59,341 bases of DNA from an uncultured Gammaproteobacteria bacterium (GTDB taxonomy: Bacteria; Pseudomonadota; Gammaproteobacteria; Pseudomonadales; Porticoccaceae). Of this stretch, positions 50,413 through 54,131 are shown in pieces. How positions within the stretch are numbered: position 1 is the first letter of the stretch; the number at the start of each line of letters is the position of its first letter. The stretch is from contig CAJXRS010000003.1 of NCBI GenBank assembly GCA_913060555.1, positions 1 through 59,341 on the forward strand, written 5' to 3'. Below the pieces are notes generated by a model, which ran no database searches, was not told where the DNA came from, and saw nothing but the letters and a program-made list of their open reading frames with translations. A program made the position numbers and the translations under genes.

Positions 50413-51560
50413 GCCACCTCCGCGGGCCAGCAGCGGACGAACTCGAGCAGGTCGCTGCCCAGGGCGTCGCGGCGCCAACCACTCGCCAGTGCCTCTGGCA
50501 GCGCCGGCTGGCCGGCGCTCCAGGAGCGGGCCAACTGTTCCAGCTCCGCCCGCCGGGCGAGCAGCTCCGGAGCGATCGCCAACTGTCGCGCGCGCTCCGC
50601 GAGCCAGTCCCGGCAGGCGCGGATCAGGTCGCGCTCGGCGCGCGCTGGCGGCCCCTGGGCGATGGCTTCGGGACAGGCCTCTGCGGGCACCGCGGCGCCG
50701 CGTTCCAGCGCTGCCAGCAGGGCGTCGCCACAGGTGCGCACGACCCGGGGCCGGAGGCCGTCGACCGCGGCGAGGGCCTCCCGATCGCGGGGCCGGGCGG
50801 CAACCAGCGCCAACAGCTCGGCGTCATTGACGATATGGCCCCGAGGCCGGTTGCGGTGCCGCGCCTCGAGCTCGCGCCAGGCCGCCAGCTCGCGCAGCAC
50901 CGCGAGGTCCGCCGGGTCCAGGCGGCCGCCACCCTTGACTCGTCGAAACTGCTCCGTGGGCGGGGTCTCCTTTACGGCCTGGGTCAACACCCGCTCCATT
51001 TCCTCGGCCATCCAGGAGCTGCGCCCGGATTGCTCGGCGAGCTCCACCAAGCGCAGGTAGACCGGAAACAGGTGATGCACATCGGCCGCGGCGTAGGCGA
51101 GCTGAGCCGCGCTCAGCGGCCGCTGCAGCCAATCCGACCGGGTCTCCTGCTTGGCCAGCTCGATGCCCAGCAGCCGTTGCACCAGAGCCCCGTAACCCAG
51201 CGAAAATCCTTGGCCGGTCATCGCCGCCGCCACCTGGGTGTCATAGAGGGGCACGGGCCGGCAGCCCAGCTCGTGCTGCAACACCTCCAGATCCTCGGAA
51301 CAGGAGTGCAGCACCTTGATCACCGCCGGATCCAGGAGCACCTGCGCCAGCGGTGCCAGATTTTCGATCGCCAGCGGGTCGACCAACCACACCTGGTCAC
51401 CATCGCTCAGCTGGACCAGCGCCAGGCGCGGATGAAAGGTGTCGGTACGCATGAATTCGGTATCCAGCGCCAGGGCCGGCCGGCGCTGCCAGTGGGCCGC
51501 CGCGGCCTCCAGCTGGGAGGCACCGGTGATCAGCACGACTTCGGGCACGGAACCGCTCAC
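50409..51560 (-). CDS. rnd: Ribonuclease D
   Basis: This 383-residue 3'-5' exoribonuclease trims tRNA precursors. The DEDD catalytic motifs are seen as [42 protein letters not shown] and [18 protein letters not shown] (the YxxxD motif). An HRDC nucleic-acid-binding region follows ([31 protein letters not shown]). The start is GTG at 51560, overlapping the recR stop by four bases. Confidence 0.95.
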
Positions 51561-52162
51561 TGCACCATCTGCCGGCGGCTGGCGAAGGCATGTGACAGGG
51601 TACCGCCGTCGACGTACTCCAATTCACCGCCCAGGGGCACGCCATGGGCAATCCGGGTCACCGAAATCCCCAGGGTCGCAGCATGTTCGCCGATGAACTG
51701 GGCGGTGGCCTCGCCTTCCACCGTGAGATTGGTGGCCAGGATCAGTTCCGCCACCGGCTCGGCGGCCAGCCGGCGCAGCAGCTGATCGATGCCGATCTCC
51801 TCCGGCCCCAGGCCATCGATCGGCGACAGGCGTCCCAACAACACGAAATACCTCCCCTGGTAGGTCCCCGACTGCTCGATGGCGAGCAGATCGGCCGGCG
51901 TCTCCACCACGCACAACAGGCTGGGATCGCGCCGCGGATCGGCGCAGATCGGACAGGCCTCGGTCTCGGTCAGAGTCCGGCAATGCCGGCAGCGGGCCAC
52001 CCGATCGGCGGCCTCGGACAGCACTGCGGCCAACTGCCGGGCACCTTCACGGTCGCGTTCCAGAAGGTGCAGTGCCATGCGCTGCGCACCCTTGGGGCCC
52101 ACCCCGGGCAGGCGCCGCAGGGCCTGGATCAGATGATCGATAAGCGGGCTGAACATCGCCAT
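51557..52162 (-). CDS. recR: Recombination protein RecR
   Basis: This 201-residue protein acts with RecO and RecF to load RecA on gapped DNA. The HhH region [20 protein letters not shown], the zinc finger [16 protein letters not shown] and the Toprim segment [25 protein letters not shown] are present. The ATG at 52162 overlaps the ebfC stop by one base (TGATG); an ATG two codons later is possible. It belongs to the dnaX-ebfC-recR cluster. Confidence 0.97.
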
Positions 52163-52482
52163 CAGAAGGGCATCTTGAAGCCCGGGGGCAGCGGCATCCC
52201 TGCGGTCAGCCCGCCCATCAACTCCTTCTGTCTGGCCTCGATCTTGCGCGCGGCATCATTGACGGCCGCGGCGAGCAGATCCTCGAGGATTTCCACTTCC
52301 TCCTGCATCAGGCTCGGATCGATACTGACCTGCCGGACGTCGTGACGGCCGGTCATGCGCACCCGCACCAGGCCGGCACCGGCCTCGCCCTCCACCTCCG
52401 CAGCGGCGGCCTCCTCCTGCAGCTTCTGCATCTTTTCCTGCATCTGCTTGGCCTGCTGCATCAATTCGTTCAGATCTTTCAT
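52162..52482 (-). CDS. ebfC: Nucleoid-associated protein, YbaB/EbfC family
   Basis: This 106-residue protein starts [26 protein letters not shown], with helical DNA-binding arms, then [21 protein letters not shown] and [21 protein letters not shown], as in YbaB. It lies eight bases after dnaX and one base into recR. Confidence 0.96.
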
Positions 52483-52490
52483 GAGCTACC

Positions 52491-54131
52491 TCATTCGTCG
52501 AGGGGAACCACGGTGTCTTCGAGCAACACTCCGTCGAAGTGTTCCACCAGCGCGCCCACCACGGGATCGGCCCGCAGGGCCGCCACCGCGGCGGCATGGC
52601 GCTCGCGCCCGGTGCGCAGAGCCGCCGCCCGCGGCGACTCCGACTGCTGATCGCCCACTTCGATCCTGGCGGTGACCGCGGTGCCGAAATACGCGCCCAG
52701 CGCTTCCTGCAGACGCCGGCGGTGACCGTCCTCGTACAGCGAGGCACTGCCGGCATCGAGCCGGAACACCAGCTCCGTGCCGGTTACGGTCACCAGTTCC
52801 AGGTTGTCCGCCGTGTTGCCAGCCACCCCGCCCAGGCGCAGCGCGCCACAGACCCGGGGCCAGTGACGCGGCACGAATTCCGCCAGGGTAAAGCCGTCCC
52901 CGGCGGCGCCGGCCACCGATACAGGCGCCGGCTCGGGCTCGCTTCGAGCCGCACGCGGCGGCTCAGGCTCAGGCTTTTTTGCCGCAGGCGGCACCTCCGG
53001 CGCCGCTCGCTGATGCCCTGTCGCAGACCCGACTTCCGCCACCGCCGGCTCCGGTTGGAAGGCCAGTTGGCGCAGCAGGATCATCTCGAAACCCACCCGT
53101 GGATCACCGCTGTAGGGCAGATCCCGCCGGCCCAACAGACAGATTTGATAGAACAACTGTACCGCTTCCGGTGCCAGGTCGGCCGCCAACTCCCGGATCG
53201 CCGCGCCCTCGGCACCGTCCGCGGGCAGCGCCTCGGGAACGGTCTGCGCCACCGCGACGCCATGCCAGAGGGCGATCATCTCGGCGAGCGCAGCACCGTA
53301 ATCCGGCGCCAACTCGGCAAACCCCTCGACCAGCGCGAGCACTCGGGGACCATCGCCGGCCGCTATCGCCTGACAGAGGGCCAGCACCCGGGAGCGGTCG
53401 ATGGTGCCCAGCATGGCGTTGACCTCGGCCTCCAGCACCTGTCCGCCGCCCTGCGCCACGGCCTGGTCGGTCAGACTCAGGGCGTCCCGCATACTGCCGT
53501 CGGCAGACCGCGCCAGGGCCCAGAGACCGGCCTCCTCGAAGGGGACGTTCTCCTCTCGCAACACCGCGGACAAATGCCCCTGGATCCGCTCCGGTGTCAG
53601 ATTCTTGAGGCTGAACTGCAGGCAGCGCGACAGCACCGTCATCGGCAGCTTCTGTGGATCCGTGGTGGCGAGCAGAAACTTCACATGGGGCGGCGGTTCT
53701 TCGAGCGTCTTCAGCAGCGCATTGAAGCTGTGCCCGGAAAGCATGTGCACCTCATCGATCAGGTACACCTTGAAGCGCCCCCGGGTGGGCAGGTACTGCA
53801 CGTTGTCGAGCAGATCCCTGGTGTCCTCGACCTTGGTACGAGAGGCGGCGTCGACCTCGATCAGGTCGACGAAGCGCCCCTCCGCCACCTCCACGCAGGC
53901 CGAGCAGGTGCCGCAGGGCGTAGCACTGACGCCGGTTTCGCAGTTCAGGCACTTGGCAAGGATGCGGGCGATGGTGGTCTTGCCCACGCCGCGGGTACCG
54001 GTAAACAGATAGGCATGATGCAGCCGGCCCTGATCCAGGGCGTTGATCAGCGCCTTGAGGACGTGCTCCTGCCCCACCATCTCGGCGAAGACACGGGGCC
54101 GCCACTTGCGGGCCAGCACCTGATAGCTCAT
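52491..54131 (-). CDS. dnaX: DNA polymerase III subunits tau and (by frameshift) gamma
   Basis: The full 546-residue frame is tau, the clamp-loader ATPase that also tethers polymerase and DnaB. The AAA+ domain has Walker A LFTGTRGVGKTTIARILAKCLNC, a four-cysteine zinc site around CLNCETG and CGTCSAC, Walker B YLIDEVHMLSGHSFNALLKTLEEPP and the LRDALSLTDQAVAQGGG sensor 2 region. A -1 frameshift signal at 52974-52980 should also produce a shorter gamma of about 387 residues ending Lys-Lys-Ala. The tau-specific C-terminal part is about 160 residues, shorter than in E. coli (total 643). Confidence 0.96.
   Translation of the reverse strand: MSYQVLARKWRPRVFAEMVGQEHVLKALINALDQGRLHHAYLFTGTRGVGKTTIARILAKCLNCETGVSATPCGTCSACVEVAEGRFVDLIEVDAASRTKVEDTRDLLDNVQYLPTRGRFKVYLIDEVHMLSGHSFNALLKTLEEPPPHVKFLLATTDPQKLPMTVLSRCLQFSLKNLTPERIQGHLSAVLREENVPFEEAGLWALARSADGSMRDALSLTDQAVAQGGGQVLEAEVNAMLGTIDRSRVLALCQAIAAGDGPRVLALVEGFAELAPDYGAALAEMIALWHGVAVAQTVPEALPADGAEGAAIRELAADLAPEAVQLFYQICLLGRRDLPYSGDPRVGFEMILLRQLAFQPEPAVAEVGSATGHQRAAPEVPPAAKKPEPEPPRAARSEPEPAPVSVAGAAGDGFTLAEFVPRHWPRVCGALRLGGVAGNTADNLELVTVTGTELVFRLDAGSASLYEDGHRRRLQEALGAYFGTAVTARIEVGDQQSESPRAAALRTGRERHAAAVAALRADPVVGALVEHFDGVLLEDTVVPLDE
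52946..52998 (-). promoter_or_regulatory. dnaX programmed -1 ribosomal frameshift signal
   Basis: On the mRNA strand, in order: Shine-Dalgarno-like GGAGGT (52998-52993), 12 bases, slippery A AAA AAG (52980-52974, in frame after GCA), 9 bases, then a perfect 7-bp hairpin GAGCCGC/GCGGCTC with loop CGCGT (52964-52946). The -1 frame reaches TGA at 52971-52969, one codon after the slippery heptamer. The heptamer and the position of the stop are the same as in E. coli dnaX. Confidence 0.85.

Follow-up and report, generated by a model that had tools for sequence, protein, structure and literature searches.

A putative E. coli-type -1 frameshift cassette in dnaX of an uncultured Porticoccaceae bacterium, and its conservation across the family

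Does dnaX of an uncultured gammaproteobacterium (GTDB order Pseudomonadales, family Porticoccaceae) yield, besides full-length tau, a short gamma made by programmed -1 ribosomal frameshifting of the kind known from E. coli? The question is raised by contig CAJXRS010000003.1 of assembly GCA_913060555.1 (positions 1 to 59,341, analysed as one 59,341-nt stretch and hereafter called the window), in which an initial annotation had recognised a Shine-Dalgarno (SD)-like GGAGGT, an in-frame A AAA AAG, a -1 stop and a perfect hairpin; all four were found where it had placed them, and in that order. The locus reads as follows.

54131..52491, minus strand: dnaX, zero-frame product tau, 546 aa (ORF list and Pfam)
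52998..52993, minus strand: internal SD-like GGAGGT, with a 12-nt spacer to the heptamer
52980..52974, minus strand: slippery heptamer A AAA AAG, in frame, read GCA AAA AAG
52971..52969, minus strand: -1 frame stop TGA, preceded by one sense codon (GCC); gamma ends at 387 aa
52964..52946, minus strand: downstream hairpin GAGCCGC-CGCGT-GCGGCTC, 9 nt past the heptamer
52945..52965, minus strand: the same hairpin with an outer U-G pair, 7 bp perfect, 5-nt loop, -13.0 kcal/mol
52950..52936, minus strand: competing hairpin GGCTCG-AAG-CGAGCC, the tip of a longer bulged stem
52923..52963, minus strand: a longer, bulged stem-loop as the alternative; it is the fold of minimum energy (-22.7 kcal/mol for the 54 nt)
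52162..52482, minus strand: ybaB-like ORF, directly 3' of dnaX (ORF list)
51557..52162, minus strand: recR-like ORF (ORF list)

The dnaX ORF comprises 546 codons before its stop, and translation of both frames bore out the product sizes given at the outset (tau 546 aa, gamma about 387 aa), with the -1 frame product at exactly 387 aa. The clamp-loader Pfam matches lie between residues 20 and 363, where gamma3 ends, and tau_5 occupies residues 423-541, with the shift codons 384-386 falling in between. At offset -18 lies the best anti-SD 7-mer, GGAGGTG, with -12.6 kcal/mol, whereas in the +1 frame no stop comes until 60 codons past the site. Downstream, the two ORFs that we take, by E. coli gene order, to be ybaB and recR occupy the positions of those genes in the E. 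coli K-12 record, which has the order dnaX-ybaB-recR. An Rfam search of the stretch gave no match to a frameshift element, its two hits both being sub-threshold.

From these elements and their conservation, we consider it very probable that gamma is made here by programmed -1 ribosomal frameshifting, at a cassette like that of E. coli dnaX. Mechanistically, the internal GGAGGT would base-pair with the 16S rRNA 3' end of an elongating ribosome that holds AAA AAG in its P and A sites; downstream mRNA structure would help, and two tRNA-Lys(UUU) would move back by one base to pair with AAA AAA. The slipped ribosome would add alanine and then stop at TGA, leaving a 387-aa gamma that would retain the clamp-loader domains and lose the C-terminal tau domain, with non-slipping ribosomes yielding tau. 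The sequence elements, the domain split, the conservation described below and the single tRNA-Lys(UUU) are observed directly; the slipping itself, the efficiency with which it would occur and the entry of gamma into the clamp loader are what we infer.

Conservation was assessed in 112 genomes of the family, and counts rest on the 100 in which dnaX was found at an E-value of 1e-80 or better. The in-frame heptamer is present in 87 of the 100 loci fetched, and a -1 stop follows within 8 codons in all 87, after a single codon in 67. Three of the 13 heptamer-less loci are unreadable, owing to a contig end (L178), a broken frame (L204) or a run of N before the site, beyond which an SD, the heptamer and TGA follow in a frame that cannot be read (L199). 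The ten readable genes without the heptamer fall in genus g10 (seven), g13 (two) and g4 (one, L164), and the sole g10 locus that has it (L201) carries it inside an A8 run. In the window's own genus, heptamer and SD are present in all four species, with the stop at +1 in two species and at +5 in the other two. Locus L152 (genome G104) has an intact cassette, after which dnaX passes through a series of short repeats and its reading is disrupted in several frames, perhaps through sequencing error.

In the family profile, the mean anti-SD energy reaches -9.7 kcal/mol at offset -18, with off-peak values mostly between -1 and +1, lesser downstream dips (to -2.9 at +24) and a value at offset -10 that is an artefact of the no-duplex placeholder. 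A site of -7 kcal/mol or better lies somewhere between -30 and -6 in 86 of the 87 genes, the thresholds of -6 and -7 used here having been picked after viewing this profile. At the -7 threshold, the heptamer, a -1 stop within 8 codons and the SD occur together in 82 of 92 readable family genes (those of at least 1500 nt) against 1.1 expected from 40 synonymous shuffles per gene. The peptides at the site vary (73 distinct among 87 genes), and the SD core starts in all three codon phases (56, 27 and 3 of 86, by a crude first-match rule); thus, the protein sequence does not explain the SD. Of 79 Pro and Ser codons directly after the heptamer, 65 end in T, the letter that a -1 TGA requires, compared with 1078 of 3396 across the same whole genes. 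To judge from these patterns, it is as nucleotide sequence that most of the family retains heptamer, SD and near -1 stop, and the likening of the site to the E. coli mechanism made by the initial annotation is supported by this conservation, with gamma as the probable product.

Downstream RNA structure is the weakest element, carrying little weight for the window gene alone and gaining support across the family. The perfect hairpin that had been pointed out is present; it is not the best fold, since enforcing it over the 54 nt past the heptamer gives -20.4 against -22.7 kcal/mol (2.3 worse), and the suspected competitor GGCTCG/CGAGCC does exist, at the tip of the minimum-energy fold. Stability downstream in window dnaX does not exceed that of synonymous shuffles (p 0.10-0.18 over 30-45 nt; 0.32 over 60 nt), nor does it in L113 and L004, which are the closest relatives, although it strongly does in L006. 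In the nucleotide-level comparison of relatives proposed with the initial annotation, the heptamer held and the GAGCCGC hairpin did not, being absent from L113 and L004. A simple scan for perfect hairpins found none in many relatives, and structure was thus assessed by folding energy: across the 87 family genes, the 45 nt starting 6 nt past the heptamer are stabler than in synonymous shuffles (mean z -1.26, SE 0.12), with p of 0.05 or less in 41% of them, compared with mean z between -0.47 and 0.25 at ten control positions. A 66-nt segment from E. coli dnaX around its site is itself unremarkable against dinucleotide shuffles (z -0.68), so a single-sequence stability test is weak either way.

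Beyond the family, two putative devices stand in contrast: ribosomal frameshifting, marked by an A6G site with a strong SD and a -1 stop, and transcriptional slippage, marked by a run of A9-A10 that lacks an SD and has stops in both other frames. Where genes outside the family carry A AAA AAG and reach a -1 stop no more than 10 codons on, the median SD energy is -7.5 kcal/mol (n=32), and seven of the A6G genes there are weaker than -6 and have no other passing site. For genes with runs of A9 or longer, the SD energy is -1.9 (n=26), not beyond the background of -2.7 (n=531); exceptions are L323 (A9), with an SD of -8.1, and L044, where an A6G site and an A10 run coexist. Of 108 genes with heptamer plus SD, 32 show a +1 stop no further than 10 codons away, near the background of 174 in 525; the -1 stop within 10 codons of all 110 such genes follows from the definition of the class, whereas the family count (87/87) required no stop. 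By comparison, 23 and 23 of 25 A9+ genes have a stop within 10 codons in the two other frames, and 21 have it in both, against 75 of 525 in the background. Runs of A9-A11 in the dnaX linker, mostly without an SD, were found in L038, L043, L059, L069, L119, L129 and L138 and in 18 loci of a class-wide sample.

That sample, mostly one genome per family, comprised 140 genomes, of which 131 had dnaX at an E-value of 1e-90 or better and 130 were fetched (G493 was omitted). In the 129 loci besides the window, heptamer and SD occur together only in L207 and L263, with a weaker case, L306, outside the counting range. The A9+ relatives are candidates for transcriptional slippage replacing ribosomal frameshifting: long A runs without an SD and with near stops in both frames are the published slippage signature, and it thus seems that Gammaproteobacteria arrive at the short product by either of two mechanisms. 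Two loci, L303 (A9, codon 374) and L332 (A11, codon 392), differ in that the zero frame stops soon after the run and the -1 frame is open for about 200 codons, so that slippage would be required for tau, the situation of the two-ORF genes in Antonov 2013; a homopolymer error in these draft genomes is possible. In 34 Pseudomonas-titled loci (among L065-L112), the search past codon 300 for zero-frame slippery heptamers and for A runs of at least 8 found neither, and lineages related to Pseudomonas on the tree do carry the cassette.

Evolutionarily, the heptamer-plus-SD label requires 21 changes on the dnaX tree, at least 10 of them by starred branches, against 39.9 in shuffles, and the A9+ label 16 against 19.7, on a tree that comes from a quick search with one gene, 131 chosen rows, a midpoint root and long branches, and on which gain and loss look alike. 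It is perhaps the case, and we hold the matter evenly balanced, that selection in Gammaproteobacteria maintains the short gamma and not the means of making it, with the dnaX linker having repeatedly gained, lost and exchanged both devices, sometimes between near neighbours on the tree, and the Pseudomonas examined having neither.

The tRNA-Lys complement bears on both devices. According to a review (PMC5009743), the E. coli-type device goes with a sole tRNA-Lys (UUU) that reads both AAA and AAG, and a second tRNA-Lys may, its authors suggest, accompany transcriptional slippage. In the 98% complete draft to which the window belongs, one tRNA-Lys was found, with anticodon ttt and confirmed by ARAGORN, and a ctt form gave no match to a pattern that could miss tRNAs not fitting it. 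Over 79 genomes searched with this pattern (11 without a match; the ARAGORN check covered the hits of the window genome), the picture is mixed: the 16 A9+ genomes of the class sample comprise five with both TTT and CTT, seven with only TTT and four without a match, and three A9+ genomes of the order (G039, G052 and G054) have only TTT. Pattern matches suggest that G589, whose locus L207 has heptamer and SD, possesses both forms, which would speak against the need for a sole tRNA-Lys.

Against the frameshift reading we count the non-significant structure in the window gene, the absence of its hairpin from L113 and L004, the ten family genes without the heptamer and the Pseudomonas loci (0/34). 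Could the A run instead act through transcriptional slippage of the Thermus dnaX type, giving mixed mRNAs of which the shifted ones make gamma? The heptamer is an A run, and the relatives with A9 or longer runs fit that type; the run here has only 6 A, however, where the review speaks of runs of 9 (PMC5009743), and a strong SD without known use to RNA polymerase is conserved beside it. Moreover, the +1 stop is distant, in contrast to the paired near stops of most A9+ genes, and we regard slippage at this site as very unlikely. Alternatively, the site may be inherited with its gamma unused, or gamma may arise mainly by proteolysis of tau, as is reported for Caulobacter in the review (PMC5009743). 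Proteolysis requires no heptamer, SD or -1 stop, yet all three are conserved in most of the family, which makes this reading, too, highly improbable.

Finally, a Lys-Lys in a fast-changing linker might simply happen to be written AAA AAG, with no shifting at all. AAAAAAG occurs once in the window against 1.00 expected, so the heptamer alone proves nothing, and the hairpin of the window gene is not significant. However, an in-frame heptamer within codons 350-483 arises in 13 of 5000 synonymous shuffles of window dnaX, and the heptamer with a -1 stop within 8 codons and an SD in 2 of 5000. In the draft genome, of 2.95 Mb, GGNGG-N8..16-AAAAAAG-NN-TGA has a single match, which is the dnaX site, and its reversed control has no match there; over 390 genomes of the order, at least 120 have a match, a count that we set aside, as it is not tied to dnaX and the reversed control also matches in many. 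Together with the excess of the cassette in the family, these shuffles leave chance strongly disfavoured and the least probable reading of all.

Both mechanisms were already known, and the site is a well-supported further case of the ribosomal kind. We found no title or abstract on dnaX frameshifting in Porticoccaceae, nor on switches between the two devices within Gammaproteobacteria, in a search confined largely to open-access papers. With this cassette, a form of recoding known from textbooks gains a further family, on the comparative base of dnaX loci from 100 genomes, with the SD conserved more strictly than any single hairpin. The contrast between A6G and A9+ relatives also supplies ready pairs with which the purpose of gamma could be studied, because some close relatives apparently do without it.

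Among known systems, Blochmannia, which we take to belong to the Gammaproteobacteria, is a nearby precedent within the class. Its genome paper infers transcriptional slippage at another dnaX poly-A tract, beyond the ribosomal site, that restores tau. The two-ORF dnaX genes of Antonov 2013 share recoding at an A run in dnaX (PMC3711429); there, recoding makes tau, whereas in the window tau is read through a single open frame and it is the short product that the shift would give. That study derives its dnaX motif from nine genera, among which are Escherichia, Vibrio and Neisseria, and reports A7-A10 two-ORF genes elsewhere (PMC3711429). Thermus thermophilus dnaX shares the gene and a short gamma from a late A run, by features described in two sources (PMC5009743, PMC1088944), but has A9 where the window has A6, an SD and no near +1 stop.

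The closest likeness is to E. coli dnaX, which likewise has A AAA AAG in this frame, a single codon between it and a -1 TGA, an upstream SD-like motif and a predicted downstream stem-loop. The K-12 site reads AGGGAG, 10 nt, A AAA AAG, AG TGA, with gamma annotated as a joined CDS, and the review puts shifting there at 50% (PMC5009743). A device of this type should yield both tau and gamma, in a ratio of about 1:1. The spacings noted initially (SD 12 and hairpin 9 bases from the heptamer) hold and differ from those of E. coli, in which AGGGAG ends 10 nt before the heptamer, so that GGAGGT stands 2 nt further off, and the stem starts 5 nt after it, compared with a predicted 9-10 nt in the window. 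The 12-nt spacing nevertheless falls inside the 9-14 nt range given for -1 frameshifting in the review (PMC5009743). Tau is shorter in the window (546 versus 643 aa), and the best anti-SD 7-mer there is the stronger of the two, E. coli reaching -7.3 kcal/mol.
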